Shown piece after piece: positions 3,066 through 28,720 of a DNA stretch of 29,240 nucleotides. Source of the DNA: a virus; IMG/VR virus record IMGVR_UViG_3300009001_000063, positions 1 to 29,240 of that record; one strand, written 5' to 3'. The notes below the pieces were generated by a model. It searched no databases. It was given only the letters and a program-made list of their open reading frames with translations, and was not told the origin of the DNA. Each line of letters starts with the position of its first letter. Position 1 is the stretch's first letter. The position numbers and the translations under genes were made by a program.

Positions 3066-3284
3066 ATGATTTTATACATACTAACCAGCTTTATAGTTTT
3101 ATTACTATTTTTGATTGCCTATACTGATAAACACAGACCTGTAATACAATTTACTATTATTACAGGTTTTGGCTTTTTATTCCTATATGATGAAGAGTAT
3201 AAGGAAGAGGGGAAGCAAGTTATATACCAGTTAATGCTTGGGGTACTATTAATATCTTTATCCTATACTAGAGATGCTGAGTAA
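3066..3284 (+). CDS. Small membrane protein (72 aa)
   Basis: A strongly hydrophobic N-terminal segment (residues about 2-19, ILTSFIVLLLFLIAY) is followed by a second apolar stretch (about 27-41). A third, weaker one lies at about 53-67. The charged loop DEEYKEEGK sits between the last two. This predicts an integral inner-membrane protein with two or three passes. It overlaps the sigma-like gene by 11 bases, so the two are probably co-expressed. The function is unknown. An early, small, multi-pass phage protein might act in superinfection exclusion or host-membrane takeover, but there is no specific evidence. Confidence 0.65.
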   Translation: MILYILTSFIVLLLFLIAYTDKHRPVIQFTIITGFGFLFLYDEEYKEEGKQVIYQLMLGVLLISLSYTRDAE

Positions 3285-7952: not shown

Positions 7953-8390
7953 ATGACAGAGAGACAACTAAAAGACCTAAACTATATAAAAGACAGAATA
8001 GAGTTTTACAGTGGTTTAGATATAAGAAAAAAAAGCAGAGAGAGAGAGTATGTATATGCTAGGATGGTATTCTGTAAAGTAATGAGAGAAGAGTTTTTAA
8101 TGACTATGAGTGCTATAGGAAAGTACTTAGGTAAGTCTCACTGTACAGTAGTACACTATATGAAAAACTTTGAAACTATAGAAAAATATGAGTACAACTA
8201 TAATAAGATGTATAACTATATACTATTAGAAATGAATGCAGAGCATATGTTTATAGGTACTAGCTTTATGGGTAAGAAGAGAGACATAAGTAAAGATGTT
8301 CTAGAGGTTAATGATAAAATACAAGAAGCTGTAAGATCAGCAGTTAAAGAAGCAGTAAAAGAATATAGGGGTATAACTAGTGAGGTATAA
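7953..8390 (+). CDS. DnaA domain IV-like DNA-binding protein
   Basis: Residues about 20-75 resemble the C-terminal DNA-binding domain of the replication initiator DnaA. A basic helix (KKSREREYVYARMVFCKVM) is followed by MSAIGKYLGKSHCTVVHYMK, where the G-K-S-H-C-T-V-V-H stretch corresponds to the DnaA signature helix that reads the DnaA box (G-R-x-H-S-T-V). There is no AAA+ domain, so this would be a stand-alone DNA binder, perhaps acting at the origin or as a regulator. I chose 7953 rather than the in-frame ATG at 7929 because it avoids overlap with the previous gene. A C-terminal helix ends about residue 140. Confidence 0.65.
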   Translation: MTERQLKDLNYIKDRIEFYSGLDIRKKSREREYVYARMVFCKVMREEFLMTMSAIGKYLGKSHCTVVHYMKNFETIEKYEYNYNKMYNYILLEMNAEHMFIGTSFMGKKRDISKDVLEVNDKIQEAVRSAVKEAVKEYRGITSEV

Positions 8391-8417
8391 AAAATAAAAA
8401 AATTTCGTTATATTAAT
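8389..8417 (+). promoter_or_regulatory. CGTTAT-class late promoter before TerS
   Basis: CGTTATATTA (8406-8415) places its C exactly 12 bases before the ATG at 8418. An A run begins 17 bases before that C, after a pyrimidine. The same arrangement recurs before 9946, 17282 and 22168, with a variant before 18608. If CGTTAT is a -10 element, transcription would start at the ATG itself. Confidence 0.65.
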
Positions 8418-8780
8418 ATGATAGACAACAGAATCCGACATACTAAAGAGAGTTTACTAAATGCCTTAGAGCAGTCTTTAGGAGTAGTTACTACAGCTTG
8501 TAAGAGTGTAGGGATACATAGAAGCACCTTTTATGAGTACTACAATAATGATGAGGAGTTTAGACAAAAGGTAGATGATCTAAACAATGTAGCAAAAGAC
8601 TTTGTAGAGTCTAAGATGTTTGAAAATATTAGAGATAATGATAGTGGACTAATTAAGTTTTATTTAGCTACTAAAGGTAAGGACAGGGGTTATGTACCTA
8701 GAAATGAGATAGCCACAGATGGAATGCCTACTAACTTTCAAATAGAGATAATTGACTCCACTACAGAAGATAAAGACTAA
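8418..8780 (+). CDS. terS: Terminase small subunit
   Basis: The 120-residue protein has an N-terminal helix-turn-helix (TTACKSVGIHRSTFYEYYNN, about residues 24-43) followed by a helical oligomerisation region (FRQKVDDLNNVAKDFVESKM). This is the usual small-terminase layout. These proteins bind the packaging site on phage DNA and load the large subunit. It directly precedes and overlaps the large terminase gene by 29 bases. It is the first gene behind a CGTTAT-class promoter and probably opens the packaging operon. Confidence 0.85.
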   Translation: MIDNRIRHTKESLLNALEQSLGVVTTACKSVGIHRSTFYEYYNNDEEFRQKVDDLNNVAKDFVESKMFENIRDNDSGLIKFYLATKGKDRGYVPRNEIATDGMPTNFQIEIIDSTTEDKD

Positions 8781-9918
8781 TGTAGTTTTTAAGCATCTAC
8801 AAAATTCTACTTCCAAGATAACCATAGAGCAAGGTGGTACTAGGAGTGGTAAGACCTACAATATACTTTTATATATCATCTTTGACTACTGCACCAACAA
8901 TACAGGTAAGACAGTAACTATATGTAGGGATACATTCCCAGCTCTTAGGTCTACAGTGATGAGGGACTTCTTTGAGATACTTAAAAATAATAACTGCTAC
9001 TTTGAACAATTCCATAATAAGTCAAGCTCTGAGTATAGACTCTTTGGGAACTTAGTAGAGTTTATTAGTGTAGACCAGCCACAGAAGATTAGAGGTAGAA
9101 AGAGAGAGCTACTATTTTGTAATGAGGCTAATAGCTTAGACTTTGAAACTTGGCAACAGCTTATATTTAGAACTCAAGAAAAAATCATAATTGACTATAA
9201 CCCTAGTGATGAGTACCACTGGATATATGATAGAGTAATACCTAGAGAGGACTCAGAGTTTTTTAAGACTACCTATATAGATAATCCTTTTTTAGATCAA
9301 ACTATTGTAGATGAGATAGAGAGACTAAAAGAAACAGATGAGCAGTACTGGAGGATATATGGACTAGGAGAGAGAGGGTTTAGTAAGGCTACTATATTCC
9401 AATACAATGAAGTAGACAGCATACCAGAGGATGCAGAGTTTGTGAGCTTTGGTTTAGACTATGGCTATACTAATGATCCTACAGCACTTATAGGAATTTG
9501 GAAGAGAGACTACAGCTTATACTTAAAAGAGTATGTCTACCAGACTATGATGACAGGAGCAGATATACATAAGAAGCTAAGAGAGATAGGAGTAAATAGA
9601 GAAATAATCTTTGGAGACTCAGCAGAGCCTAGACTAAATGATGAGCTGAGGAGAATGGGATGGAATATAAAAAATAGTGTTAAGGGTAGGGACTCAGTAA
9701 ATGCTGGGATAGACCTACTTAAGAGATACAAAATAAATATACTTAAAGATAGCCATAATGCTATACAAGAGTTTAGGAACTACAAATGGGTAGAGGATAA
9801 AAGTGGTAAACTGACTAATAAACCAGTAGATAAAAATAACCACTTAATTGATGCCTGTCGCTATGGATGTTACTCTATAATGAGTAGAGCAAACTTTGGT
9901 AAGTATGCTATCCGTTAA
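8752..9918 (+). CDS. terL: Terminase large subunit
   Basis: The 388-residue packaging motor has an ATPase domain with Walker A GGTRSGKT (28-35) and a Walker B-like LLFCNEA (120-126) with the catalytic Glu. The C-terminal RNase H-like nuclease domain has acidic residues in FGLDYGY (Asp236), IFGDSAEPR (Asp289) and HLIDACRY (Asp367). It looks like the PBSX-type large terminases. No ATG is available before the conserved region. The frame begins at TTG 8752, inside the small-subunit gene, so a non-ATG start with translational coupling is likely. Confidence 0.93.
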   Translation: MTPLQKIKTNVVFKHLQNSTSKITIEQGGTRSGKTYNILLYIIFDYCTNNTGKTVTICRDTFPALRSTVMRDFFEILKNNNCYFEQFHNKSSSEYRLFGNLVEFISVDQPQKIRGRKRELLFCNEANSLDFETWQQLIFRTQEKIIIDYNPSDEYHWIYDRVIPREDSEFFKTTYIDNPFLDQTIVDEIERLKETDEQYWRIYGLGERGFSKATIFQYNEVDSIPEDAEFVSFGLDYGYTNDPTALIGIWKRDYSLYLKEYVYQTMMTGADIHKKLREIGVNREIIFGDSAEPRLNDELRRMGWNIKNSVKGRDSVNAGIDLLKRYKINILKDSHNAIQEFRNYKWVEDKSGKLTNKPVDKNNHLIDACRYGCYSIMSRANFGKYAIR

Positions 9919-9945
9919 AAACTATAAATTTTACGTTATATTATT
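9917..9945 (+). promoter_or_regulatory. CGTTAT-class late promoter before tail chaperone
   Basis: CGTTATATTA (9934-9943) sits with its C 12 bases before ATG 9946. AAAA begins at 9917, 17 bases before the C, after a pyrimidine. The spacing is identical to that at 8418 and 22168. It lies in the short gap after the large terminase and would start transcription of the tail operon. Confidence 0.65.
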
Positions 9946-10584
9946 ATGAAGCTAAAGATTAATGTACCTAATGATTTAGGAGAGATTAAGCTATCAGATT
10001 ATGTTAAGTATCTGAAAGTGCTAGAAGTAAATGAAGATGATGCTAATAGTGAGGTGTTTGTCCATCAGAAAGTATTAGAGATATTTTGTGGAGTGCCACT
10101 AATAGATGCAGTAGAATACAGGATGTCTGATGTCAGAAAGGTAGTAGCTATAATTACTAATACCCTAAACAAACAGCCAGACCTAGTAAGGACTTTTAAA
10201 CTAGGAGATACTGAGTTTGGTTTTATACCTAAGCTAGATGATATGACCTTTGGAGAGTATGTAGACCTAGATAGTAACTTAGGTAACTGGGATAATATGT
10301 ACAAAGCTATGGCAGTACTATACAGACCTATAAAGCAAAAGGTAGGGGATAAGTATATAATAGAAGATTATAAAGGAGACCTGTACTATGATGCTATGAT
10401 ACATACTCCTATGGATGCAGTTATAAGCTCTATGGTTTTTTTTTACAATTTAGGGAAAGAATTGTCAGTAGCTATGATGAAATATTTGGAGGAGGGGAAT
10501 CTGGAGGACTCGATGCTTTCTCAAACTTCTCTAATAAATGGGGATGGTATCAGTCAATACAAGCACTTAGCCAATTTGATGTAA
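9946..10584 (+). CDS. Tail assembly chaperone, zero-frame product (gpG-like)
   Basis: The 212-residue protein starts the tail module. Its central part (KLGDTEFGFIPKLDDMTFGE, about residues 85-104, and a following YKAMAVLYRPI) resembles tail assembly chaperone or tail-neck proteins of Bacteroidota siphoviruses as I know them. In lambda the equivalent gpG binds the tape measure and is made in excess over a frameshifted gpGT. The -1 frame is open from within this gene to 10697 and encodes a typical T-like extension, which supports the call. A poly-T slip site lies at 10436-10444. Confidence 0.7.
   Translation: MKLKINVPNDLGEIKLSDYVKYLKVLEVNEDDANSEVFVHQKVLEIFCGVPLIDAVEYRMSDVRKVVAIITNTLNKQPDLVRTFKLGDTEFGFIPKLDDMTFGEYVDLDSNLGNWDNMYKAMAVLYRPIKQKVGDKYIIEDYKGDLYYDAMIHTPMDAVISSMVFFYNLGKELSVAMMKYLEEGNLEDSMLSQTSLINGDGISQYKHLANLM
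10436..10444 (+). other. Candidate -1 ribosomal frameshift site (nine T)
   Basis: Zero-frame codons read GTT TTT TTT TAC across nine consecutive T residues. A T-TTT-TTT heptamer at 10437-10443 allows both tRNAs to re-pair after slipping back one base, after which reading continues TTA CAA TTT. The -1 frame is then open for 84 codons. Polymerase slippage on the T run would be an alternative mechanism with the same outcome. Confidence 0.65.
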
Positions 10585-10697
10585 TGAGGATAGATGAGGT
10601 TACTAAGCTGAATATACATAAGTGCCTATATGCTCTAGCCTTTATGAAAGATAAAGCAGATTTAGAAATAAAGAATATAAAAAATAAGTTTAAATGA
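10443..10697 (+). CDS. Tail assembly chaperone, -1 frame extension (gpT-like)
   Basis: In the -1 frame relative to the upstream gene, this segment is open without stops to TGA 10695-10697. It contains FSNKWGWYQSIQALSQFDVM and then DEVTKLNIHKCLYALAFMKD. The W-G-W-Y-x-S-I and VTKL...C-L-Y-L pattern is what I expect of the T extension in Bacteroidota siphophage chaperones. It has no good start before that motif. The first ATG (10584) lies after it, so it should be made as a fusion with the upstream product. An independent 37-codon gene from 10584 is the less likely alternative. Confidence 0.75.
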   Translation, partial: LQFRERIVSSYDEIFGGGESGGLDAFSNFSNKWGWYQSIQALSQFDVMRIDEVTKLNIHKCLYALAFMKDKADLEIKNIKNKFK

Positions 10698-11179
10698 CAG
10701 CAATTACTCACAGAGGAGCTATAGCCTATTATGATGTTATGGAAACCTTAAAAGACTTACTACTAGCAGATGTAAATGTTAATACAGTAACTAGAGGGGA
10801 TATAACACAGGTTAATCTAAATAAGGCTGATATGTTTCCACTGTCTCATATAATGCTAAACAATGTATCTGAGAATGGTCAGACTATGACTTTTAGTTTA
10901 AGTATACTAGCTATGGATATAGTAGACTTTAGTAAAGAAGAGACTACAGATATCTTTAGAGGTAATAACAATGAGATGGATGTACTCAATACTCAACTAG
11001 CAGTACTAAACAAGTTTATACAAAAACTTAGAAAGGGTACTACTCATAGAGAGGGTTATCAAGTAGATGGTACTGTAAGCCTAGATGCTTTTAAGGATAG
11101 GTTTGAGAATGAATTAGCTGGATGGAGTGCTACATTTTCTTTAATAGTAATGAACAATATAGATATCTGTGAGGACTGA
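10694..11179 (+). CDS. Putative tail terminator/completion protein
   Basis: The 161-residue protein overlaps the chaperone extension by four bases (ATGA). It has an N-terminal helix (AYYDVMETLKDLLLADVNVN) and beta-rich segments around PLSHIMLNNV and MTFSLSILAMDIVD. The ending is beta-rich (GWSATFSLIVMNNIDICED). This size and helix-then-strand layout fits tail terminator or minor tail proteins that sit at the head-proximal tail end. Position next to an HK97 gp10-like gene supports this. The assignment is by context and fold impression. Confidence 0.5.
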   Translation: MTAITHRGAIAYYDVMETLKDLLLADVNVNTVTRGDITQVNLNKADMFPLSHIMLNNVSENGQTMTFSLSILAMDIVDFSKEETTDIFRGNNNEMDVLNTQLAVLNKFIQKLRKGTTHREGYQVDGTVSLDAFKDRFENELAGWSATFSLIVMNNIDICED

Positions 11180-11735
11180 TAACTTAAAAAAAGCACTAGA
11201 GAATATAAGAGACCAGATAGTAGAGGACTCTAAAAAGAACTTAGCGAATCAAGGTAAGACAGGGAATCTATATAAGAGCATAAAGGGTACACCTATAAAA
11301 GAAGATAAAGCTGGTATGTCCTTTGAGATTGAGATGGATGACTATGGACTCTTTCAAGATAAAGGGGTTAAAGGTAAAGATCCTAGTAAGGTAGTAGGAG
11401 GAGAGAAAGCTATAAGAGGACAGCAAGCTCCTAATAGTCCTTATAAGTTTGGGAGTGGTAATATGAGTGGCACTTTTGATAGCTTCTCTAAGAGTGTAGG
11501 GGACTGGGCAAAGTCTAGAAACTTTAGGCTAAGAGATGAGAAAGGTAGATTTGTTAAAGGTACTTATGAGACTATAGGAAAGATAATAGCTAGAAACATA
11601 TACTACAGAGGATTAAAGCCTAGCTTGTTTTTTACTAATGCTTATGAGAAAGTGCAGAAAGATATGGGTAGCCAATTAGAAAAAGCCTTAAAACTAGATA
11701 CAGAGAAAATGATAAAAATAAAAGCAGAGAAATGA
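11169..11735 (+). CDS. HK97 gp10-like neck/tail protein
   Basis: The 188-residue protein has features of the HK97 gp10 group: an N-terminal helix (KKALENIRDQIVEDSKKNLA), a GNLYKSIKG segment, a YGLFQDKGVKG motif, and a C-terminal RGLKPSLFFTNAYEK. In this group the G-x-(x)-x-G and K-P-x-x-F segments recur. These proteins work at the head-tail junction. The frame begins with GTG at 11169, inside the previous gene by 11 bases, and no ATG is available near the N-terminus. Confidence 0.6.
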   Translation: MRTDNLKKALENIRDQIVEDSKKNLANQGKTGNLYKSIKGTPIKEDKAGMSFEIEMDDYGLFQDKGVKGKDPSKVVGGEKAIRGQQAPNSPYKFGSGNMSGTFDSFSKSVGDWAKSRNFRLRDEKGRFVKGTYETIGKIIARNIYYRGLKPSLFFTNAYEKVQKDMGSQLEKALKLDTEKMIKIKAEK

Positions 11736-12844
11736 GCAAAATAAATTCTAGAAGTCCATACTACATAAATATAACAGCTACTAATTTGAGAAAGGTAGAT
11801 ATGGAGTTATATGTATATACAGGAACTCAGACTACAGATAGAGACAATAAATTTACTTTAACCTCTTTTGCAATAAATGAGAATGTAACTTTTGAGATAG
11901 GGGAGATAGTAAGAGATTATCTTTTACAGACTTTTGATGGAGATTATGAAACTTTAAATGTTTGGGTAGATTATAGAACTAAACTAACTACAACAGTCTC
12001 ACAGGTAGACTATGGAGAGTTTACTCAGTTAGTAGGTTTTGATGGATATGGTTATTATGAGAATGAAGCAAACCCACAGAATGATACAGGTCTACTACAG
12101 ACTAACACTAAAATACTAAAACTAGATGATGCTCCAGCAGTAATACCTGTAGATACTTCTAAGGCTACACAGGTTACTTATGAAAAAGATGGAGAGCTAG
12201 TATATACTTTTGCAGTTAGTAGTAGTGTATATAGTGATAGACAGATTAAGTATGTTACAAATGGGATCAATGGTGCTGATGAGTATGAGGATAGAGTAAT
12301 ACAAGATGGAGGTACTTTTGAGGATAGTGTATGTCTACAAGAGTTTGTGAATGACTTTACTTTATTTGACTTTGATACTATTTATGTAGATACTACTGAT
12401 GGTGTTATAAAGCTAACAGTAGAGAATATAGAGGAGTGTAAGTATCAGCCTTATAAAGTAACATTTGTAAATAAGTATGGAGCTTTACAGGATGTGTGGT
12501 TTTTCAAGAGGACTAATACAGTCTTAGCTACTAACAAAGAAGATTTTAAAAGAAACATTATAGTTAATGGTGCTTATGATAGAAGTAGACATCAGCAAAA
12601 AATATTAACTAAGAATGGTACAGAGAAACTAACTTTAAACACAGGCTTTTATCCAGAAGAGTATAATGAGGTATTTAAAGAGATGCAACTTAGTGAGGAT
12701 TGCTGGATAGAGATAGACTCTAAAACACTACCAATTAATGTAAGCAGTAGTAGTTTAAGCTATAAGACTCACTTAAATGATAAGCTAATTAATTACACTA
12801 TAGAGGTAGACTTTGCTTTTGATACTATAAACAATATACGTTAA
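11732..12844 (+). CDS. Tail structural protein (370 aa)
   Basis: The 370-residue, beta-rich acidic protein has no signal peptide or membrane segment. It lies between the gp10-like gene and the large tail protein, overlapping both by a few bases. The N-terminus (SPYYINITATNLRKVDMELY) and the inner segment YKVTFVNKYGALQDVWFFKR look like those of structural tail proteins found in Bacteroidota siphoviruses. A distal-tail or tail-hub role is reasonable from context. I cannot tell which from sequence alone. Confidence 0.55.
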   Translation: MSKINSRSPYYINITATNLRKVDMELYVYTGTQTTDRDNKFTLTSFAINENVTFEIGEIVRDYLLQTFDGDYETLNVWVDYRTKLTTTVSQVDYGEFTQLVGFDGYGYYENEANPQNDTGLLQTNTKILKLDDAPAVIPVDTSKATQVTYEKDGELVYTFAVSSSVYSDRQIKYVTNGINGADEYEDRVIQDGGTFEDSVCLQEFVNDFTLFDFDTIYVDTTDGVIKLTVENIEECKYQPYKVTFVNKYGALQDVWFFKRTNTVLATNKEDFKRNIIVNGAYDRSRHQQKILTKNGTEKLTLNTGFYPEEYNEVFKEMQLSEDCWIEIDSKTLPINVSSSSLSYKTHLNDKLINYTIEVDFAFDTINNIR

Positions 12845-15390
12845 TGCAGATAATTGAACTTTATATAAAAGGATATAAGAGGTTAAATGGTGCAGTCAAT
12901 TCTACAGCAGTAAATAAACTTATTGATAGCACTGCTAAATTTACAGAAACTATTGAGATAGGAGATTTAGTTACAAACCTAAAGACAGATAGCACAGCAA
13001 CAGTAACAGCTATTGACAGTGATACTCAGCTAACTTTATCTATTGATATATTTACTACAACACAAGAGCCTTATAGAATTACAAGTGATTATTTTAGAGC
13101 TGATATGTTTAAAGATGAAAGTGTAGTAATTACTGATAGCCTATTAAATGTTAGAGATGTGGCTAAAGTATTTACACCTTTTTCTAAGCAGTTTAATCTT
13201 CCAGCCTCTAAGTTAAATAACAAACTATTTAGGCACTATGAGAATACTGATATATTAGATAGTTTTGATGCTAGATATAGGCACGATGCAATAATTAAAC
13301 TAAATGGTATTGATTACAAAATAGGTAAGATACAGTTTAGTAGTGTACAATTAAAAAACAATAAAGCCTATTCATATAAAGTAACATTTTTTAGTGATAC
13401 AGTAGACCTAAAAGAAATACTAGGAGATAGTAAACTGTCTGGTTTAAACTATGGAGATATAAGTGAGTTTATATACAGTCAAGCCAATATACTAGATATG
13501 GCTACTAAAGATGATGCTTACCTAGAAGCTAGTGGGGTTTTAAACAGCTCAGATATTAAAGTGCCTAATATACAGCATAGTAAAAATATGAGGTTTAGTA
13601 ATAGTGGGTATAAAGATAATGCAACAGGAACTAGTTTAGAGTGGACTGATCTTAAACCAGCTATAAGATTAAGAGCAATTATACAAGCTATAAATAGAAC
13701 ATATCCACAAATTAATATAACAGGGTTTTTAGACAGTATACAGATACAAGATATTTATTTATGGTTACATAGAAACGAGGGATATATTACTAATTCTGTT
13801 GAGGGTGGTGGTGTTCAAGTAGTTAGTAATAGATGGGCTTTAGGTATAGATGATTATACACCTGTATCTAATGATGTTAGAGGGGTTTATATGGAGTATC
13901 CACCATCTAGAAACAGATATATTTTTTATGTAGATATTACACCGACAGATTTAACAGCTAGTTATGATGTTACAATAAAGAGAACTCTAACTGATACACC
14001 TTTAGCTACATTTCAAGGCTTAACAGGTGTACAAAATATAAATACAGGTTACTTCACTACACAGCATTATGGTTTTGGAGAGATAGACATAACAGTAGAA
14101 ATACAATCTGAGAATACTCTATCTATGACTCATACAGTAGCCTTAAGGTATGAAAATAGAACATCAATTATTACTCCTTTCACACCTGAGTTTCAATCAA
14201 CATATAACGCTGTAAATTCTGATGTTCAGAATACTTTTTATGTATCTAAACAAGTGCCAGAAATGAAAGTAATGGACTTTTTAAGCGGTTTGTTTAAGAT
14301 GTTTAATCTAGTAGTCTTTAAAGAGGATAACAATATATTTACTGCTTTAGCTTCTCAATATATGAATATCGGCAACGCTTATGATATTACTAAGTATGTG
14401 GATATGGAAAGCTCAACACTAGAAAGGCTGTTTCAGTATAAAGAAATGGACTTTAGATTTAAAAGTAAAAAATCATTTTTAGTTCAATTTGCTGATGAGA
14501 TAAATGGAGTACCTTTTGCAGAGGAAGATTATGGTAGTGAAGAGTGGGATGGTGGAGTATATAATCTAGAAGTGCCTTTTGAGAAAATGATGTATGAAAG
14601 GTTGAGTAATGAAACTACAGGAGCTTTATCTGATATTGGACAGGGTGCTATGATAGATAAAAAGTTTGAAGCTACAATAGGAGAGCCTTTACTTTTATGT
14701 ATGGATTATACAGATAGCAATGGAGATTATGCAATAACAGGTACAACAGCAGATACTTACTGGAGACCTACTCAACTAACTTCTAATAACTGGGGTAATG
14801 ATGTAAATGGTTTAGCTTTAAATTTTGGAGAGGAGATTGATGAGTGGCTACAAGTAAACCCTACTAATTATCAAAACTTATTTAGTGCTAATTACTTTGA
14901 TTATGTAGATAGTGTTTTTGATAGACAGGCTAGAATGCTAAAAGTAAGTGCTTATCTACCTTTAAGTATAATCACTAAGTACAAATTAAATGATAGGTTT
15001 ATAATAGCTAACAAGTCATATAGAATAAATAGTATAAAAACAAACCTACTAACTAATAAAACAGATTTAGAACTTTACAATAAAGAGGAGTTTGCAAGTC
15101 AGTTAGAAAATAGCCAAGTAGCTTATTTAGGTAGGGTAGCACAATTAACAGAAGCAACAAAAGGTACAGATTTTATTACTGTATCTTGGGATAGTGTAAG
15201 TGGTGCAACAGGGTATAATGTTTATTATAATGGTACTTTATTTAGTGCAGAGCCAAACACAACTACAACACTAAAAGTAAATGGTTTAGAGAGTGATACG
15301 TGGTACAATATAGAAGTAAGAGTTAAATACACTATTGATGGTAATGATGTATTCTCTTTTGATACAGGACTAACAGCAAAAACAGATTAA
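12844..15390 (+). CDS. Large tail protein with C-terminal FN3 domain (848 aa)
   Basis: The N-terminus carries a small beta insert (GDLVTNLKTDSTATVTAIDS, then DTQLTLSIDIF) of a kind often seen in phage structural proteins. Next is a conserved block (VVITDSLLNVRDVAKVFTPF, then FNLPASKLNNKLFRHYENTD) characteristic of Bacteroidota siphophage tail proteins. The last about 95 residues form a fibronectin type III domain (FITVSWDSVSGATGYNVYYN, then WYNIEVRVKYT). FN3 domains on phage virions can help surface or carbohydrate attachment. Position before the tape measure suggests a tail-hub or tip role. Confidence 0.7.
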   Translation: MQIIELYIKGYKRLNGAVNSTAVNKLIDSTAKFTETIEIGDLVTNLKTDSTATVTAIDSDTQLTLSIDIFTTTQEPYRITSDYFRADMFKDESVVITDSLLNVRDVAKVFTPFSKQFNLPASKLNNKLFRHYENTDILDSFDARYRHDAIIKLNGIDYKIGKIQFSSVQLKNNKAYSYKVTFFSDTVDLKEILGDSKLSGLNYGDISEFIYSQANILDMATKDDAYLEASGVLNSSDIKVPNIQHSKNMRFSNSGYKDNATGTSLEWTDLKPAIRLRAIIQAINRTYPQINITGFLDSIQIQDIYLWLHRNEGYITNSVEGGGVQVVSNRWALGIDDYTPVSNDVRGVYMEYPPSRNRYIFYVDITPTDLTASYDVTIKRTLTDTPLATFQGLTGVQNINTGYFTTQHYGFGEIDITVEIQSENTLSMTHTVALRYENRTSIITPFTPEFQSTYNAVNSDVQNTFYVSKQVPEMKVMDFLSGLFKMFNLVVFKEDNNIFTALASQYMNIGNAYDITKYVDMESSTLERLFQYKEMDFRFKSKKSFLVQFADEINGVPFAEEDYGSEEWDGGVYNLEVPFEKMMYERLSNETTGALSDIGQGAMIDKKFEATIGEPLLLCMDYTDSNGDYAITGTTADTYWRPTQLTSNNWGNDVNGLALNFGEEIDEWLQVNPTNYQNLFSANYFDYVDSVFDRQARMLKVSAYLPLSIITKYKLNDRFIIANKSYRINSIKTNLLTNKTDLELYNKEEFASQLENSQVAYLGRVAQLTEATKGTDFITVSWDSVSGATGYNVYYNGTLFSAEPNTTTTLKVNGLESDTWYNIEVRVKYTIDGNDVFSFDTGLTAKTD

Positions 15391-15530
15391 TGATAAAAGA
15401 TATTTTAGAAGCTCTAGAGTTTGACTTTAGAGGAGAGTACATAGATATAGCAAAGGGCAAATATAAAATGCCAGAAACTATAAAAGAGGGTATAGAACAA
15501 ATTAAGAATGAGGTATGGCAGAAAAAGTAA
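15390..15530 (+). CDS. Small hypothetical tail-region protein (46 aa)
   Basis: ATG 15390 overlaps the preceding TAA (TAATG). The 46-codon frame ends at TAA 15528-15530, 16 bases into the tape measure gene. The product is charged and helical (MIKDILEALEFDFRGEYIDI at the start). Its overlaps on both sides suggest it couples translation of the large tail protein to the tape measure. The function is unknown. Confidence 0.6.
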   Translation: MIKDILEALEFDFRGEYIDIAKGKYKMPETIKEGIEQIKNEVWQKK

Positions 15531-17251
15531 CAATAGAAGTAGATGCTAAAACTAGTGATGCAGAGAAATCTTTAGAATCTTTAAACAAAAACCTAGACCA
15601 AGTATCTAAGGCTGGAGATAAAAATAGAGAGGGGTTTGAAACTCTAGATGAGGTTACTGGTGGTTATGCTGGTAAGGTAAAAGAGCTATCTGGTAAAATA
15701 TCTGGAGTAACTAAGGCGGCTGGATCTTTTATAAAAAGTTTAAAAGGAGTAAAGGGTGCGTTATTGGCAACTGGTATAGGAGCTATTGTTGTGGCTTTAG
15801 GTACAATAATTTTTTATTGGAAAGAAATTACTGAGTTTTTTGAGGGTGCTGAGGAATCACTACAAGACCAAGCTGATAGTCTAAGGGAAAGTTTAGGTTT
15901 GTTAGATGATCAATTAACCTTATTAAATTTACAAATAAAGATACTAGAACAACAAGGACTTAGCAGTAAGGAATTAGTAAAAGAGAAGAGAAAGTTAATA
16001 ATACTACAACAAGAGGAGAATACACTACTCTTAGAGAAATTAAAACAGCAGTTAGAATTAGAGACCGCACAAGTTAGAGAGGTATCCTTTTTGGAGAAGT
16101 TAAAAATAAAAGCCGCTGAGTCTTTTGGTATTTATAGTTTAGCCGCTAAAGAAAGAGGTAAGGCTGTAGCTGGAACTGAGAAAGAAAGAGAGAATCTATT
16201 AAAGTTAGAGGAGCAAATACAAAAAGCTAAAGAAAGGAGTTTAAGTTTAGAGTTAGATTTAATTAACTTAGATAAACAAGAGACTAATAAAAAAACTAAG
16301 GCTGGAGATGATAAGGTTAAGAAAGAGAAAGAAAAAGCAGATGCTTTAGAAAAAATCAGACAGGGAGAGATAGATACAGAAGCAGAGAGAAGAGCAGAGG
16401 AGAAAAAGAAAATACAAGACCACTACAAAGAGCTAATAAGACTAGCTGAATTATATGAAGAGGATACCTCAGCTTTAAAGGAAGCACAGACTACAAAAGA
16501 AAAAGAGCTACAGGATAAGTTTGATAAAGAGGATGAGGCTAGAAAAAAAGCTAAAGAAGAGAAAAACAAAAAAGACTTACAAGAGGAACAAGATAGAAAA
16601 ATCACACAGCTTGAATTAAATAAAGAGTTTGATAACTTAAAATTTGAAGAGCAAAGAGCTATAATTAATTCTAGAAAGGAGATACTATTAAATGATGAGT
16701 TATTAAGTGATGAGCAAAAACTAGAACTTAAAAGACAATTTTCAGAAGCTACTAAAAAAATAGATGAGTCTGAGAAAGACTTTAAGAAAGAACAATTAGC
16801 TGAAACTATGCAATTAATGGGACAGGTACAGGATCTTGTAGGTAAGCAGACAGCGGCTGGTAAAGCCTTAGGTATAGCTACAGCTACTGTAAACACTTTT
16901 GTGGGTGTATCGGAAGCCTTAAAGCAAAAGAGTACACTTCCATCTCCTTTTGATGTAGTGGCTAAGGTAGCGAATGTAGCTACTGTTTTAGCTAGTGGTT
17001 TAGGAGCTGTAAAAAGTATACAGTCTGTAAATATTCCTGGCGGTGCTGGAGGTGGTGGAGGTGGATCAGTACCAGCAACTCCACAGCCTAGAACTCCAAG
17101 CTTTAATGTAGTAGGTGCTACTGAGACTAGCCAATTAGCAGAAGCAATAGGAGAGCAAACTCAAGAGCCAGTACAGGCTTATGTAGTAGCTAATGATGTA
17201 ACTACAGCACAGAGTCTAGAAAATAACATAGTAGAGGGAGCTACACTTTAA
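15515..17251 (+). CDS. Tail tape measure protein
   Basis: The 578-residue protein is dominated by long charged coiled coils (about 110-450). A hydrophobic segment (GALLATGIGAIVVALGTIIF, 81-100) could insert into the host membrane, and a second apolar stretch lies near 455-500. A glycine-rich linker follows at about 505-515. The C-terminal tail (PSFNVVGATETSQLAEAIGE, then VQAYVVANDVTTAQSL) is of a type I associate with Bacteroidota phage tape measures. At about 1.5 angstroms per residue it predicts a tail near 85-90 nm. It is short for a tape measure but complete. Confidence 0.85.
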   Translation: MAEKVTIEVDAKTSDAEKSLESLNKNLDQVSKAGDKNREGFETLDEVTGGYAGKVKELSGKISGVTKAAGSFIKSLKGVKGALLATGIGAIVVALGTIIFYWKEITEFFEGAEESLQDQADSLRESLGLLDDQLTLLNLQIKILEQQGLSSKELVKEKRKLIILQQEENTLLLEKLKQQLELETAQVREVSFLEKLKIKAAESFGIYSLAAKERGKAVAGTEKERENLLKLEEQIQKAKERSLSLELDLINLDKQETNKKTKAGDDKVKKEKEKADALEKIRQGEIDTEAERRAEEKKKIQDHYKELIRLAELYEEDTSALKEAQTTKEKELQDKFDKEDEARKKAKEEKNKKDLQEEQDRKITQLELNKEFDNLKFEEQRAIINSRKEILLNDELLSDEQKLELKRQFSEATKKIDESEKDFKKEQLAETMQLMGQVQDLVGKQTAAGKALGIATATVNTFVGVSEALKQKSTLPSPFDVVAKVANVATVLASGLGAVKSIQSVNIPGGAGGGGGGSVPATPQPRTPSFNVVGATETSQLAEAIGEQTQEPVQAYVVANDVTTAQSLENNIVEGATL

Positions 17252-17252
17252 C

Positions 17253-17281
17253 AAAATAATAAATAATAACGTTATAATAGT
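17253..17281 (+). promoter_or_regulatory. CGTTAT-class late promoter before head protease
   Basis: CGTTATAATA (17270-17279) has its C 12 bases before ATG 17282. AAAA starts at 17253, again 17 bases before the C, after a pyrimidine. One base pair is swapped relative to CGTTATATTA. It sits in the short gap between the tape measure and the head module. Confidence 0.65.
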
Positions 17282-18190
17282 ATGAGAATTGTAGAACTTA
17301 TTATAGAAGAGGAAGAGGATAGCTTATTTGCTGGTATAGATGCGATTAGTATTGTAGAGCATCCAGCTATAGAGGAGAACTTTGTAGCACTTAATCAGCA
17401 AAAGGAATACAAACTAGCAGAAGCAGATACAGATAAAAGACTACTTACAGGAGCTTTACTGATACCTAATAAAACCATCTATAGAAAGGATGGAGATGAT
17501 GAGTATTATATTTACTTCACTAGAGAGACAGTGAGAAAGGCTAGTGAGATGTTTTTAATGAATGGCTATCAAAACAATTCTACTTTTGAGCATAAGCTAG
17601 AGTTATCTGGACTTACTTTAGTAGAAAGCTGGATAGTAGAAGATGAGGTAAAAGATAAGAGTCAGATGTATGATATGGACTTACCTCTAGGAACTTGGGT
17701 AGGTACTATGAAAGTAACTAATGAGGAAGTCTGGAAAGATTTTGTAAAAACAGGTAAGGTAAAAGGTTTTTCTATCGAGGGGTACTTTGTAGAGAAGAGT
17801 AAAAAGGAAGAGTTAAGCAAAGAGATAGAAGCTGGACTAGAGCTACTAAAGATTAAACAGATGATCTTAGAAGCAGAAACAAATTTAGAGTCTTATACAG
17901 ACTATCCAGAGAGTGCTAGTAATAATGCTAAAAGAGCGTTAGAGTGGGCAGAGAAAAATGGATGGGGTAGCTGTGGAGAGGCAACAGGCAAAAAAAGAGC
18001 CTCACAAATCGCAAGTAAATCTCCTTTAAGTAGAGATACAATTTCTAGGATGGCTAGTTATAAAAGACATCAGCAGAATAAAGATGTACCATACTCTGAG
18101 GGGTGTGGAGGATTAATGTGGGATGCTTGGGGAGGCACTTCTGGTATTGAGTGGGCAATTAATAAACTTAAAAAGCTAGATGAGAAATAA
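17282..18190 (+). CDS. XkdF-type head maturation protease with extra C-terminal domain
   Basis: Residues 1-175 match XkdF-like (S78_2-type) putative serine proteases: GIDAISIVEHPAIEENFVAL at the start, RLLTGALLIPNKTIYR, FEHKLELSGLTLVESWIVED with its conserved His, then GTWVGTMKV and KGFSIEGYF. This enzyme trims scaffold and capsid proteins during head maturation. Residues about 200-302 form an unusual second domain with a cluster of conserved-looking residues (KNGWGSCG, then KRHQQNKDVPYSEGCGGLMW and DAWGG). Its function is unknown. The gene precedes the scaffold and capsid, as expected. Confidence 0.8.
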   Translation: MRIVELIIEEEEDSLFAGIDAISIVEHPAIEENFVALNQQKEYKLAEADTDKRLLTGALLIPNKTIYRKDGDDEYYIYFTRETVRKASEMFLMNGYQNNSTFEHKLELSGLTLVESWIVEDEVKDKSQMYDMDLPLGTWVGTMKVTNEEVWKDFVKTGKVKGFSIEGYFVEKSKKEELSKEIEAGLELLKIKQMILEAETNLESYTDYPESASNNAKRALEWAEKNGWGSCGEATGKKRASQIASKSPLSRDTISRMASYKRHQQNKDVPYSEGCGGLMWDAWGGTSGIEWAINKLKKLDEK

Positions 18191-18560
18191 GAAAGACTTT
18201 AGAACTCCCAGCAGAACAAGTCCAAAGAATAGTAAAAGAGGATGTTTATGTAAAGATAACACTTACTCTAGAAAGTGCTGTGATGGTAGCCTACTAGCAC
18301 AGGGTATAGGTAAAACTAAAGGAGAGGTTATCACTGGGGTTTGGTATGGGTATGTAATAGAAAATTGCTCAGATGCTCATACACATCACGTTCATATACA
18401 CGATACACCTTTAGAGGTAGGTAAAACTTATTACTTAACTCTAGAGAATAATCATAATGAGTGTTATACAATTTTAGAGGAAAGTCAAGCAGAGGGTATA
18501 CATATAAATACAGCTTCTGTTTCTTATGATGACTGTACACAATGTGAGGATGCTAATTAA
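18180..18560 (+). CDS. Conserved Cys-rich phage structural-region protein (126 aa)
   Basis: The N-terminal third is basic and cysteine-rich (RGCLCKDNTYSRKCCDGSLL), with CxC and CC pairs that could bind metal. The C-terminal part is beta-rich, with a His-rich strand (DAHTHHVHIHDTPL) and a CTQCEDAN ending. My recollection is that a CLCKD-x-TYS-x-x-CC segment recurs in Bacteroidota phages near head genes, but no function is known to me. It overlaps the protease gene by 11 bases, so it is likely part of the head operon. Confidence 0.65.
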   Translation: MRNKKDFRTPSRTSPKNSKRGCLCKDNTYSRKCCDGSLLAQGIGKTKGEVITGVWYGYVIENCSDAHTHHVHIHDTPLEVGKTYYLTLENNHNECYTILEESQAEGIHINTASVSYDDCTQCEDAN

Positions 18561-18566
18561 AAATGC

Positions 18567-18595
18567 AAAAAAAAATATAAATACGTTATTTTATT
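18567..18595 (+). promoter_or_regulatory. CGTTAT-class promoter variant
   Basis: CGTTATTTTATTA begins at 18584. An A run starts 17 bases upstream (18567) after TGC, as in the other sites. Twelve bases after the C lies ATA (18596), not ATG. The annotated ATG is at 18608, exactly four codons further in the same frame. The site fits the class, but the start codon relation is altered. Confidence 0.55.
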
Positions 18596-18607
18596 ATAAT
18601 TCAAGTT

Positions 18608-18994
18608 ATGACTATACAGGAAAGAATATTTACACAGCTATCTAAGACTAAAAAAGTAGATTTAGCTGGTGTTAAAGATTTAGAAACTAGAACTAATGGA
18701 GCTGAGTCAGACTTCAAAGTGTTTGATGATATGTTAGCTGATTGGGTTAATAGGTATTTAGATTTACAAAATGAAGTAAGTGGTTTAATTAATATGGGAG
18801 ATATTGCTTCAAATAGCATTTCAGATTTAGAGTATTCTTTAGATGAATTTGGCACTAGTGCTGAAGATTTAGGTATTAATCCTTTTCAATTTGATGAATA
18901 TACTAATGCAACATTAACAGTAGGAAGTTATCAGAATAACTTAGATAATATAAATGAAGTTTTAGATGTTGCTAAGTCAATGAAACAACTATAA
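18608..18994 (+). CDS. Small head-module protein, paralogue 1 of 3 (128 aa)
   Basis: The 128-residue acidic helical protein starts MTIQERIFTQLSKTKKVDLA. Residues about 84-105 contain the pattern EDLGINPFQFDEYTN. It shares its ordering with the next two genes: an I/V-F-(S/T)-x-(L/I) N-terminus, a K-(K/N)-V-x-L motif, a predicted helical middle, an (E/D)-LG-(I/L) segment, and a helical end with Lys-rich tip. This suggests a family of tandem duplicates. It lies between the protease and scaffold, so a head accessory or structural role is inferred. An upstream ATA at 18596 in frame could extend it by four residues. Confidence 0.7.
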   Translation: MTIQERIFTQLSKTKKVDLAGVKDLETRTNGAESDFKVFDDMLADWVNRYLDLQNEVSGLINMGDIASNSISDLEYSLDEFGTSAEDLGINPFQFDEYTNATLTVGSYQNNLDNINEVLDVAKSMKQL

Positions 18995-18995
18995 T

Positions 18996-19448
18996 ATGAA
19001 TACTAAAAATACAGTATTTAGTAGATTATTTGATGAGAAGCTACATAAAAGACTGTTAAAGTCAGAAGCTAAAAAAGTAGACCTGTCTTTAAGAGAGGAT
19101 GTAGGTACTTCTGTAGAAGCTCTAGAAGAGATTGAGAACTTTGCAGAGCCTACTAACTTTGAGGGTGCTATCAATGAACTAAGTGATGCTTTTGATAGAG
19201 TCTTTGAGCTTACTAATGAATTAGAGAGCTATGTAGACCAGTTTAGAGGTCAAGACTACCCAAGTGTAGTAAGCAGAGCAGAAGATAGCTTAAATGCCTA
19301 CAGAAATGGCTTAGATGAGTTAGGATTACCTTTAACTGATGATGCTATCTATTTAGAGGAGCTATTAACTAAGTGGAATGATTATAGAGATATATACAAT
19401 ACTTTGCCACTAGCAGAGGAACTAATTAATAAAGCAAAAAGTTTATAA
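18996..19448 (+). CDS. Small head-module protein, paralogue 2 of 3 (150 aa)
   Basis: It begins MNTKNTVFSRLFDEKL and carries AKKVDLSLRED and, near residue 110, LDELGLPLTDDAIYLEEL. The middle is a long acidic helical region (INELSDAFDRVFELTNELES). The N-terminus MNTK-x-TVFS is shared almost exactly with the following gene. It starts one base after the previous stop. No enzymatic motif is present. It is probably a coiled-coil structural or assembly protein of the head. Confidence 0.7.
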   Translation: MNTKNTVFSRLFDEKLHKRLLKSEAKKVDLSLREDVGTSVEALEEIENFAEPTNFEGAINELSDAFDRVFELTNELESYVDQFRGQDYPSVVSRAEDSLNAYRNGLDELGLPLTDDAIYLEELLTKWNDYRDIYNTLPLAEELINKAKSL

Positions 19449-19449
19449 A

Positions 19450-19863
19450 ATGAATACAAAAAAAACAGTATTTAGCAAGATTGCTAAAGGGATGCCTAAG
19501 AAAAATGTTAAGCTAGGCTTAATAGATAACTTTAATTATGACTATCAGTATTTAGATGATCAAGCTGGATTATTAAGCTATTTAGCTTATGAGTGGCACG
19601 ATGAAGCTTTTGAAGAGTATCGACAAGCTTGGATGAAATTAAATGATGAGTATACTCATAATGGGAGTGCAGTAGTAAGATTTGAAGATGTCGAGGGAGA
19701 TATGCAATTATTACAAGAGATTAGCGTAAAAGCAGAAGAGCTTGGTTTAGATCCTAATGAAGTTTATGATACTTACGATGCTCACTTAGAACTAATAGAG
19801 TCTGTAAAAGAGGCTGATGATCAATACAAAAGAAATGAAATGCAGTTTAGAGACTGGAGTTAA
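19450..19863 (+). CDS. Small head-module protein, paralogue 3 of 3 (137 aa)
   Basis: It begins MNTKKTVFSKIAKGMPKKNV and carries AEELGLDPNEVYDTYDAHLE near residues 96-115, matching the corresponding segments in the two preceding genes. It is acidic and helical. Only one base separates it from paralogue 2. It precedes the scaffold gene. The function is unknown, but the conserved order suggests a multi-copy assembly component. Confidence 0.7.
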   Translation: MNTKKTVFSKIAKGMPKKNVKLGLIDNFNYDYQYLDDQAGLLSYLAYEWHDEAFEEYRQAWMKLNDEYTHNGSAVVRFEDVEGDMQLLQEISVKAEELGLDPNEVYDTYDAHLELIESVKEADDQYKRNEMQFRDWS

Positions 19864-19889
19864 AAATAAACATTAATAAATAAATAATT

Positions 19890-20483
19890 ATGAAAACGAC
19901 AGAGATGTTATCAAAGATTAAAGCTCTATTGAATGCTAATACTAAATTAGCTCAACAGACTTTAGACAATGGTACTATAATTGAAGCTGAGTCTTTTGAG
20001 TCTGGGCAGTCTATTTTTATTGTCACTGATGATGAGAGAGTAGCACTACCCATCGGAAGTTATAAGCTACAAAATGGAAGTACTTTAGTAGTAGAGGAAG
20101 AGGGTGTTATTGCATCTATTTCATCTGAGACTCAAGCTGAGGAAGAGGAAAAGAAAGAAGAGGTAATAGTAGAGGCTGAGGATGAAGTTATCGAGACAGA
20201 AGTACCAGAAGCAGTAGCTCCAGAAGTGGAAGCTATTGTAGAAGCAGTAGTAGAGGTGGTAGCACCAGCTATTGAAGAGGTTAAGGAAGAGCTTAAGAAA
20301 CTCAAAAAGAAATTTGAGGATGCTATGCCTACTGAGGAAGAGAAAAAAGAGAAAAAAGAGGAAATGTCTAGAAAGTTTAAGCATAGTCCAGAAAGAAAGG
20401 CTAACAAAAAACAACAAGTAAGATTTTCTGAAAATAGAAATGAAACTATCCTAGATAGAGTATTAAGACAATTAAATAAATAA
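19890..20483 (+). CDS. Putative head scaffolding protein
   Basis: The 197-residue protein has an N-terminal beta domain (LDNGTIIEAESFESGQSIFI, then DDERVALPIGSYKLQNG). A very acidic Glu/Val/Ala-rich stretch follows at about 78-135, and a Lys/Glu coiled coil and basic C-terminus (about 137-197) end it. This composition, and position immediately before the major capsid gene, fit a scaffolding protein that fills the procapsid and is later removed by the XkdF-type protease. The long charged low-complexity stretch explains the spurious open frames on the other strand here. Confidence 0.75.
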   Translation: MKTTEMLSKIKALLNANTKLAQQTLDNGTIIEAESFESGQSIFIVTDDERVALPIGSYKLQNGSTLVVEEEGVIASISSETQAEEEEKKEEVIVEAEDEVIETEVPEAVAPEVEAIVEAVVEVVAPAIEEVKEELKKLKKKFEDAMPTEEEKKEKKEEMSRKFKHSPERKANKKQQVRFSENRNETILDRVLRQLNK

Positions 20484-20491
20484 TAAAAGAA

Positions 20492-21481
20492 ATGAAAAAG
20501 ACTAATCTTTATGCTGGTAATGGTAGTGTAAATACTATTACTTCAACGTACGCTGGTGAATTTGCTGGTAAGTACATCGCGGCGGCACTTTTGAGTGGAA
20601 AGACTCTTAATGATGGAGCTGTAACAATTAAACCTAATGTAAAATACAAAGAAGTTATTAAGAAAATCGCTTCTACTGGTATCGTAGCTAATGCTTCCTG
20701 TGATTTCACAGAGACTGCTGATGCTTTAACTCTAACAGAGAGAATCCTCGAGCCTACTGAGTTACAAGTAAACCTTGTTTTGTGTAAGGCTGATTTTAGA
20801 AAAGACTGGGAAGCGGTACAAATGGGATATTCTGCATATGATAACCTACCTCCAGCTTTTAGTGATTTCTTAATCGGTCACGTTGCTTCTAAAGTAGCTG
20901 AAAAGACTGAGCAAGATTTATGGGCTGGTGCTTATGATGGATCTAATGGACAGTTTGATGGCTTTACTACTCTTATGAGTGCTGATGCTGATGTAAATGA
21001 TGCATCTAACTTAGTAGGTGGAGTAGCGGCTACTTCTTTTACTAGTGCAAATATTATCGAGCTGTTAGGAAACGCAGTAGACTCAGTGCCTAGTGCTGTA
21101 TATGGTAAAGAAGATTTAACTATCTATTTGCCTACTGTCGCTATCCAAGCCTATATTAGAGCTTTAGGTGGCTTTGGTGCTTCTGGACTAGGAGCGGCTG
21201 GTACAAATGATCAAGGATCACAGTGGTACAATATGGGTAATGCTTTGGCTTTTGAAGGTATTAAAATCCAACACGCACCGGGTATGCCATCTGACCACTT
21301 AGTAGTAGGAGAAGCTTCTAACTTGTTCTTTGGAACTGGTTTGATGTCAGACCACACAGAAGTTAAGCTCGTTGATACAAGTGAGATTTTAGGAGACCAG
21401 AATGTACGTATTATTATGCGTTATACCGCTGGGGTACAGTATGGAATCGGTAGTGATTTAGTACTATTGACTCTTGCTTAA
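20492..21481 (+). CDS. Major capsid protein
   Basis: The 329-residue protein lies right after the scaffold. It has the expected size and content for an HK97-fold capsid: an N-terminal arm (MKKTNLYAGNGSVNTITSTY), a long central helix region around KADFRKDWEAVQMG, and a C-terminal block (GLMSDHTEVKLVDTSEILGD, then NVRIIMRYTAGVQYG). Codon use is distinct. ATC, GCG/GCC-type and CG-containing codons are commoner than in neighbours, consistent with selection for high expression. A strong terminator follows. Confidence 0.88.
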   Translation: MKKTNLYAGNGSVNTITSTYAGEFAGKYIAAALLSGKTLNDGAVTIKPNVKYKEVIKKIASTGIVANASCDFTETADALTLTERILEPTELQVNLVLCKADFRKDWEAVQMGYSAYDNLPPAFSDFLIGHVASKVAEKTEQDLWAGAYDGSNGQFDGFTTLMSADADVNDASNLVGGVAATSFTSANIIELLGNAVDSVPSAVYGKEDLTIYLPTVAIQAYIRALGGFGASGLGAAGTNDQGSQWYNMGNALAFEGIKIQHAPGMPSDHLVVGEASNLFFGTGLMSDHTEVKLVDTSEILGDQNVRIIMRYTAGVQYGIGSDLVLLTLA

Positions 21482-21505
21482 GAAATAGAATATTAACATA
21501 TTAAG

Positions 21506-21539
21506 AGGGTGGGTTGGAATAGTCTTACCTACCCTTTTT
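21506..21539 (+). terminator. Rho-independent terminator after major capsid gene
   Basis: AGGGTGGGT (21506-21514) pairs with ACCTACCCT (21527-21535) with one G-T wobble around a 12-base loop, followed by TTTTT. It lies 25 bases after the capsid stop. It probably trims the capsid message and reduces read-through into the tail and portal genes. Confidence 0.85.
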
Positions 21540-21558
21540 CTTTAAAAAAAATAATAAT

Positions 21559-22083
21559 ATGGCTTGTAATTTATCAACTGGTCGTGCTTTATCGTGTAAT
21601 GATAGCGTAGGAGGTATCAAGTCTGTATACTTTGCTGAATATGGAACTATGGGAACTCTTGGAGTTACTGCTGGAGAGGTTACTACTTTTGGTGGTACTC
21701 CAGACTTCTATGAGTTTGAGGTAAGAGGAGGAAACTCTAGCCTAGAGCAAACTATCACAGGATCGAGAGAGAACGGAACAGTATTTTATGATCAAACTCT
21801 AAATGTAACTTTGCAAAAATTAGATTTGCTTACACAGGAAGAGGTAGTGAAAATAGCTAAGGCTAGACCTCACGTTGTAGTTAAGACTTTCAATGATGAG
21901 TATTTAATGATTGGAGCAGTACACGGAGCAGATTTGACTGGAGGTACTATTGTAACTGGAGCGGCAATGGGCGATTTAACAGGGTTTACTTTGACTTTAG
22001 CTGGTCAAGAGACTCTACCAGCTTACTTTGTAGATAGCAGTGCTTTTGAGGCGTTAATTGACTCTACAAAGATTAATCCATAA
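21559..22083 (+). CDS. Major tail (tube) protein
   Basis: The 174-residue beta-rich protein starts MACNLSTGRALSCNDSVGGI, followed by KSVYFAEYG. It carries a central TITGSRENGTVFYDQTLNVT segment and FTLTLAGQE near the end. I associate this N-terminus (MAC...GR...C-x-D-x-VGGI-K-x-VYF) with major tail tube proteins of Bacteroidota siphoviruses. It is set apart by its own terminator, as befits an abundant protein. It lies between the capsid and portal genes rather than beside the tail chaperone, which is unusual. Confidence 0.75.
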   Translation: MACNLSTGRALSCNDSVGGIKSVYFAEYGTMGTLGVTAGEVTTFGGTPDFYEFEVRGGNSSLEQTITGSRENGTVFYDQTLNVTLQKLDLLTQEEVVKIAKARPHVVVKTFNDEYLMIGAVHGADLTGGTIVTGAAMGDLTGFTLTLAGQETLPAYFVDSSAFEALIDSTKINP

Positions 22084-22102
22084 TAATATTAATGGTTATG
22101 TA

Positions 22103-22134
22103 AGAGGAGTACTTTATAGTACCTCTTTTTTTTT
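22103..22134 (+). terminator. Rho-independent terminator after major tail gene
   Basis: AGAGG and TACT (22103-22113, with an AG bulge) pair with AGTA and CCTCT (22118-22126) around TTAT, followed by a long T run to 22134. Together with the terminator at 21506 it isolates the capsid and tail-tube messages from the portal operon. Confidence 0.85.
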
Positions 22135-22138
22135 GCAC

Positions 22139-22167
22139 AAATTTTAGTAATAGTACGTTATATTAGT
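22139..22167 (+). promoter_or_regulatory. CGTTAT-class late promoter before portal operon
   Basis: CGTTATATTA (22156-22165) has its C 12 bases before ATG 22168. AAA begins at 22139, 17 bases before the C, after CAC. It follows immediately after a terminator, exactly where a new promoter is required to express the structural protein, portal and adaptor genes. This is the strongest positional support for the class. Confidence 0.7.
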
Positions 22168-22524
22168 ATGAAGATTATAGGTACAGGAGGAACTAAGACT
22201 TTTAAAGTAATACCTAGACAGTATGTAGATGGTCAGATAGAAATAAAACTGACTAATGAAAGTACTGGAGGGGTAGTAACTGTATCAGCTACTGCTACAA
22301 CAGACCACGATTATATGAGTTTTGAAGCTGTTTTTGGTACACTAAAAAAGGATGTATACTATACTATGGATGTATTACTTTTTGGTACTAGTACAGTGAT
22401 ATATAAAGATAAAGTATTTTGTACAGATCAAACTGTAGACCAGTCTAATAATGACTACTATACAGTAAATGAAAATGAATACACTACAGAGGATAGTTAT
22501 GATAATGATTATATAATAATATGA
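22168..22524 (+). CDS. Small structural protein (118 aa)
   Basis: The 118-residue protein is beta-rich in its first 85 residues (KTFKVIPRQYVDGQIEIKLT, then GVVTVSATATTDHDY), resembling an immunoglobulin-like or neck-type domain. The end is acidic and Tyr/Asn/Asp-rich (NEYTTEDSYDNDYIII). I associate this ending with short proteins near portal genes in Bacteroidota phages. It is the first gene of the portal operon and overlaps the portal start by four bases. A head-tail joining or decoration role is inferred. Confidence 0.55.
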   Translation: MKIIGTGGTKTFKVIPRQYVDGQIEIKLTNESTGGVVTVSATATTDHDYMSFEAVFGTLKKDVYYTMDVLLFGTSTVIYKDKVFCTDQTVDQSNNDYYTVNENEYTTEDSYDNDYIII

Positions 22525-28546: not shown

Positions 28547-28570
28547 TTTCAAGTGGAAAACATATGATAT

Positions 28571-28690: not shown

Positions 28691-28720
28691 GAATATAGAA
28701 TAACTTTTTTAATATCCTAA

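Follow-up and report, generated by a model that had tools for sequence, protein, structure and literature searches.

A putative class of late promoters abutting start codons in a marine phage, and the phage-encoded ECF-type sigma factor proposed to read it

What does a short motif do when it recurs at one fixed distance before start codons? The question is raised by the IMG/VR virus record IMGVR_UViG_3300009001_000063, whose 29,240 bases, here called the window, carry their main genes all on one strand. The phage belongs to a family of small marine phages whose relatives include phages of Bacteroidota, and a related Nonlabens phage suggests that the host of this record is itself a member of Bacteroidota. 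An earlier note on this DNA had described the motif and predicted from it a late promoter class giving leaderless mRNAs, possibly read by a sigma factor of the extracytoplasmic function (ECF) type. Taken as a whole, the analysis makes it probable that the motif marks promoters of the packaging and virion operons, that these are read by an ECF-type sigma factor of the phage, and that the resulting mRNAs are mostly leaderless. The sites and the genes that follow them are:

8388..8417, + strand: promoter 1 (-30 to -1), A run from 8389, CGTTATATTA at 8406; predicted leaderless start of 8418-8780
8418..8780, + strand: target gene of promoter 1, terminase small subunit-like (TerS-like)
9916..9945, + strand: promoter 2, CGTTATATTA at 9934; predicted leaderless start of 9946-10584
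9946..10584, + strand: target gene of promoter 2, conserved protein after TerL (phrog_32199)
17252..17281, + strand: promoter 3, CGTTATAATA at 17270; predicted leaderless start of 17282-18190
17282..18190, + strand: target gene of promoter 3, XkdF-like prohead protease (PF14550, E=2.6e-17)
18566..18607, + strand: promoter 4, CGTTATTTTA at 18584; A18596 as predicted +1, with a 12-nt leader before the ATG at 18608
18608..18994, + strand: target gene of the leadered promoter 4, no assigned function (open reading frame listing)
22103..22134, + strand: intrinsic terminator directly upstream of promoter 5, a GAGGAGTAC..GTACCTC hairpin with a downstream T run (folded)
22138..22167, + strand: promoter 5, CGTTATATTA at 22156; predicted leaderless start of 22168-22524
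22168..22524, + strand: target gene of promoter 5, small protein, first in the portal operon, preceding the portal gene

Exact CGTTATATTA is found in the window only at 8406, 9934 and 22156, with the variants CGTTATAATA at 17270 and CGTTATTTTA at 18584. The geometry described earlier is borne out in the sequence: the C of the motif lies 12 nt before the A of the ATG at 8418, 9946, 17282 and 22168, and at 5/5 sites a pyrimidine is followed, exactly 17 nt before that C, by the start of an A run. The 18584 site also retains the element and the A run, as had been noted, without the 12-nt spacing (its ATG is 24 nt away), and ATA stands at its +12. The open reading frame listing, with GTG and TTG also allowed, offers no earlier in-frame start for the four genes at 12-nt spacing. 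The terminator claimed to precede 22168 is real, and the promoter-bearing gaps in the window measure 27, 27, 30, 47 and 84 nt. Where the note had counted about eight copies of CGTTAT, there are 8 on the + strand and 12 on both strands together (both-strand shuffles gave 4.0 +/- 2.0, and none reached 12); its presence at -12 of 4/45 starts has an extreme binomial P of 8e-10, though calculated post hoc. When up to two mismatches are allowed, the ten-letter motif alone shows no enrichment (40 copies, 59 expected), and therefore the signal consists of the exact core together with its position. A scan of the window for consensus sigma-70 promoters gave no excess over shuffles.

The motif precedes packaging and head genes (TerS-like, post-TerL gene, XkdF-like protease, pre-portal gene), and it is from this gene content that late timing is proposed. 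Relatives, numbering in the hundreds, were gathered by IMG/VR searches, and distinct orthologous upstream regions with CGTTA exactly at -12 were counted. The motif is kept before the protease (48/91), the post-TerL gene (31/70) and the pre-portal gene (27/79), and is nearly absent before the internal portal gene (1/90), in agreement with the proposed promoter class. Absence from the orthologous starts of close relatives had been named as evidence that would speak against the prediction; the motif is present there with its spacing kept, except that the TerS-proximal copy at 8406 is conserved in few relatives only (TerS upstreams, 2/61; the site is common to the close relative L087). The promoter 4 site is kept in two relatives (G001, G002), with 11-12-nt leaders.

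Among 21 genomes that have the CG form, an open-frame ATG followed CGTTA on the coding strand at a distance of 12 nt in 65 cases, far more often than at 11, 13 or 14; the next commonest spacing, 10 nt, accounted for 10 cases and other spacings for fewer, and the other strand gave 0 at 12. The codon at +12 was ATG in 65 cases, ATA in 2, and GTG or TTG in 0. Gaps at motif starts in these genomes fall mainly within 26-39 nt (median 36.5; other starts have a median gap of 10), which is just room for a promoter; few genes per genome bear the motif, namely those with such upstream room. A first scan for promoter variants had accepted only sites with the A run, TA at -9/-8 and T at -1, so that its logo overstates those columns, and the spacing and initiator counts were remade without its filters.

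Where would transcription begin? At 59 non-redundant motif sites the base at -1 is T in 54, C in 3, A in 1 and G in 1, whereas other ATG starts (n=655) have A in 51% and T in 38%; the pyrimidine at -1 (57/59) differs from other starts with P=2e-20. At 44 non-redundant sites lacking an ATG at 12, T still occupies position 11 in 29 (P=1.5e-7) and A position 12 in 35 (P=9e-6). CGTTATA copies that lack the A run (110) and those on the opposite strand (199) show no such T/A step; 3 and 1 of them, respectively, have an ATG at 12. The step stays at C+12 when the ATG moves, so the step is part of the promoter and the ATG has come to sit on it; the T-1/A+1 signature is thus read as the mark of a transcript start, not of a codon. 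In complexes of the Mycobacterium tuberculosis ECF sigma SigH, the -10 element is G-11 T-10 T-9 in numbering from the transcription start site, with T-9 flipped (PMC6411747). With the A of the ATG as +1, the phage element becomes C-12 G-11 T-10 T-9, which matches the register of that complex. All sequence proxies thus agree on a predicted start at the A of the start codon.

If the motif is a sigma-dependent promoter, it is very likely that most sites give transcripts beginning at the A of the ATG. The claim of leaderless mRNAs consequently stands for the dominant 12-nt spacing, with the initiator at C+12, and fails for a minority, including 18584, where the ATG lies farther downstream and leaders of ~2-13 nt are predicted. 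The same sigma promoter might instead fire a few bases upstream, giving leaders of 1-5 nt and mRNAs that are not strictly leaderless. The start site of a promoter can vary by a few bases, and the ATG is 2-4 nt farther down in some relatives; this is nevertheless unlikely, given that ATG and non-ATG classes alike have their pyrimidine/purine step mainly at C+11/C+12, that spacing 12 prevails so strongly over its neighbours, and that the SigH register puts +1 at C+12.

The proposed reader of these promoters is encoded in the window itself:

3274..3786, + strand: ECF-type sigma factor gene, 170 aa (phrog_1740, E=1.3e-6)

The phrog_1740 family matched by its product is annotated as RNA polymerase sigma factor. 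An AlphaFold2 model built from the sigma family alignment has a mean confidence (pLDDT) of 81, and its predicted helices form a region-2-like domain and a C-terminal helix-turn-helix domain within 170 aa (ECF sigmas have ~160-200 aa). Nearly every top fold match in the PDB is an ECF sigma within an initiation or anti-sigma complex, one being SigL (6dv9_F, E=3.9e-5, prob 1.00). Judged by this model, the product of 3274-3786 is a divergent ECF-type sigma factor of two domains, and the ECF-type reader suggested in the note would be a product of the phage. A homologue is present in 30/30 long relatives checked. One record (G044) has a contig with two different homologues (L399 and L402). A tblastn search of isolate phages with the window protein found no match, and a scan of genome contigs yielded a single distant homologue, on a contig of a Bacteroidia metagenome-assembled genome (L394) that is perhaps a phage contig.

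The cultured Nonlabens phage P12024S, located only through its protease, has both motif and sigma. P12024S and P12024L (Inhavirus) share with the window a homologous protease, portal, post-TerL gene and sigma, at 25-45% identity over the matched parts; the annotation of the sigma (gp33) goes no further than hypothetical protein with Sigma-70 region 2, and in P12024S it scores 25.2 bits against Pfam Sigma70_r2, over the cut-off. P12024S has 7 coding-strand sites with an ATG at 12, the same spacing as in the window, one example being gp05 (AAAACAA..CGTTAATATAGT-ATG). The ATGs at 179, 3031, 5412, 23961, 25201 and 26802 are predicted leaderless starts of this phage, whose laboratory host is Persicivirga sp. 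IMCC12024. Unlike the window, which has C or T at -30 and CGT at -12, P12024S has AAAACAA as -35, with AAC 17 nt before CGT, and CGTTAATATA as -10. The promoters fit the ECF type, with an AAC-like -35, a ~17-nt spacer and a CGT -10. Flavobacterium phage FPSV-S2, which has a related TerL, gave no sigma match and CGTTA at 12 in 0/36.

Relatives differ in what may be called the dialect of the -10 element: CGT at -12..-10 is exchanged for CTA, TTA, TGT, CGA, TAT or AGT, while the spacing to the ATG is unchanged. There is one trinucleotide per genome (194/232 site pairs agree within a contig; shuffled mean 72.5, max 94). Among 62 non-redundant sigmas, the dialects go with the residues aligned to positions 60 and 64 of the window protein: CGT with Asp64 and Asn, Thr or Ser60 (40/40), CGA with Gly60+Asp64 (3/3), CTA with Gly60+Ala/Gln64 (4/4) and TTA with Gly60+Asn64 (4/4), besides pairings of TGA with Gly60+Asn64, TGT with His60+Asn64, TAT with Ser60+Gln64 and AGT with Asn60+Ser64. 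Gly60 accompanies A at -10, and Asp64 accompanies CG at -12/-11; the exception is L342 (Asn64), which together with L340 and L350 had been reassigned to CGT after a 2-nt shift was noticed. In a HMMER alignment to 1h3l, N60 and D64 of the window sigma align with N88 and N92 of SigH, of which N88 reads T-10 and N92 the -11 pair (PMC6411747). Forecasts for new contigs came out as predicted for CGA (Gly60+Asp64, made after one CGA case, L375, was known) and for TAT (Ser60+Gln64).

Several results weigh against this interpretation. The window sigma scores 16.7 bits against Pfam Sigma70_r2, under the gathering cut-off of 24, sequence matches of the family profile in the PDB are weak (E ~0.6), and the model has a pTM of 0.41 and whole-chain TM scores of ~0.35, these low scores arising because the domain arrangement is not fixed. 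A third forecast, of Asp64 with TGT, failed (His60+Asn64 was observed). On the sigma tree, from whose test G006 and L384 were excluded for doubtful sites, the traits that pair residues 60 and 64 with the dialect change only ~3 and 5-6 times with few branches well supported, and the sign test cannot reach significance; shared ancestry accounts for part of the pattern. Five relatives (G006, G013, G014, G016, G019) encode the sigma, yet the dialect scan found no clear site set in them, and the likely capsid gene of the window (20492) has no motif of its own. With these points counted, a sigma-dependent promoter remains the highly probable reading of the motif, and it is reasonably likely that a large, mostly uncultured lineage has its own ECF-type sigma, a clade-specific -10 dialect and leaderless late mRNAs, dialect and residues having changed together.

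The promoter could also be real and have a different reader, either an ECF sigma of the host or host polymerase aided by some other phage activator. Bacteroidota genomes have many ECF sigmas, and the link between phage sigma and promoter rests on sequence. This option is nonetheless improbable, as the sigma is present in every long relative checked, the -10 variants go with sigma residues at the positions with which SigH reads -10 and -11, and FPSV-S2, without a sigma match, is also without the motif. Still less probable is a translation-initiation signal, Kozak-like, on mRNAs of Bacteroidota that lack Shine-Dalgarno sequences. Flavobacterium does favour A-rich contexts with A at -3 (PMC6847099), and A at -3 is common here (42/59), but only a handful of genes per genome have the motif, and a second element stands at a fixed distance from it. 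This signal was rejected on the base at -1, where the A preferred by other starts is avoided, and on the initiator staying with the motif when the ATG is displaced. Ordinary host promoters (TTTG / TANNTTTG) or chance matches, which a genome of ~67% AT with common TATA-like strings might supply, are barely credible: 0/5 sites match the Bacteroidota housekeeping -7 element TANNTTTG, and shuffles, orthologous conservation and the spacing count reject chance.

In the preferred reading, that of a phage sigma promoter, early genes would probably be transcribed through a host sigma; a weak hint of this is that TAGCTTTG occurs at 151, which is 31 nt upstream of the first gene. The ECF-type sigma, made early, would then take host polymerase to the late promoters, binding the motif (C-12 G-11 T-10 T-9) as the -10 half and (C/T)AAA, starting at -30, as the -35 half, and so opening the packaging and virion operons. 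Transcription would start at C+12 on the T/A step. At most sites this A would be that of the start codon, so that the mRNA opens with 5'-AUG and would be translated by host ribosomes with the leader absent; at others, with the ATG 2-13 nt downstream, a short leader would result. The gain may be compactness and independence from leader sequences.

Phage sigmas, ECF sigmas and leaderless genes are each already known. Phage late sigmas such as T4 gp55 and SPO1 gp28 and gp33/34 redirect host polymerase to phage late promoters, as is proposed for the present sigma; to our knowledge they are of non-ECF type and none of their promoters is fused to a start codon, whereas here the promoter abuts the ATG. 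With group 4 (ECF) sigmas (M. tuberculosis SigH and SigL, Escherichia coli SigE, Bacillus subtilis SigW) the phage protein shares the build of regions 2 and 4 and a fold match, and the system shares the G-11 T-10 T-9 register and a -35/-10 spacing of ~17; it differs in being phage-encoded, very divergent in sequence and the proposed driver of virion genes, and in a -35 reduced to (C/T)AAA in most members. In bacterial TA-led leaderless genes, a -10-like signal ~12 nt before the start codon is taken as the leaderless mark (PMC3160421). The phage sites have such a signal at the same distance, although TA-led genes carry sigma-70-type TANNNT signals, unlike the phage motif. Bacteroidota genes were classed as atypical in that survey, which non-Pribnow promoters would escape according to its authors (PMC3160421).

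No phage regulon that depends on an ECF-type sigma and has its promoters fused to start codons was found described in the open-access papers searched. In Flavobacterium johnsoniae 87% of transcripts have leaders of >10 nt (PMC6847099), so a phage regulon of 5'-AUG transcripts would be a new translation strategy in that phylum. If the account is true, (i) a single sigma decides not only which genes are transcribed but also how their mRNAs are translated, (ii) a natural series of sigma/promoter pairs becomes available for the ECF recognition code and (iii) a promoter class can be assigned on many uncultured marine phage genomes. It is open to direct testing in P12024S.

Other features of the record may be mentioned. 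A 123-base direct terminal repeat (1-123 and 29118-29240) suggests a complete, circularly assembled genome. Rfam and tRNA scans gave no matches. At 3043-3050, 23 nt before 3066, the gene preceding the sigma gene, TAGCTTTA closely resembles the host -7 element, and directly 3' of the sigma gene lies a short C5 cytosine methyltransferase-like gene (3783-4439, PF00145). After the likely capsid gene, 21482-21558 contains a strong GGGTGGGTT..CCTACCC hairpin with a T run, a candidate leaky terminator that is kept in many relatives and is followed by no late promoter. In the gap before a NinG-like gene, 28562-28715 holds about nine near-palindromic CTATATAGTA / CTACTATAGAGTA repeats at ~14 nt spacing, possibly a replication origin or a regulator array.

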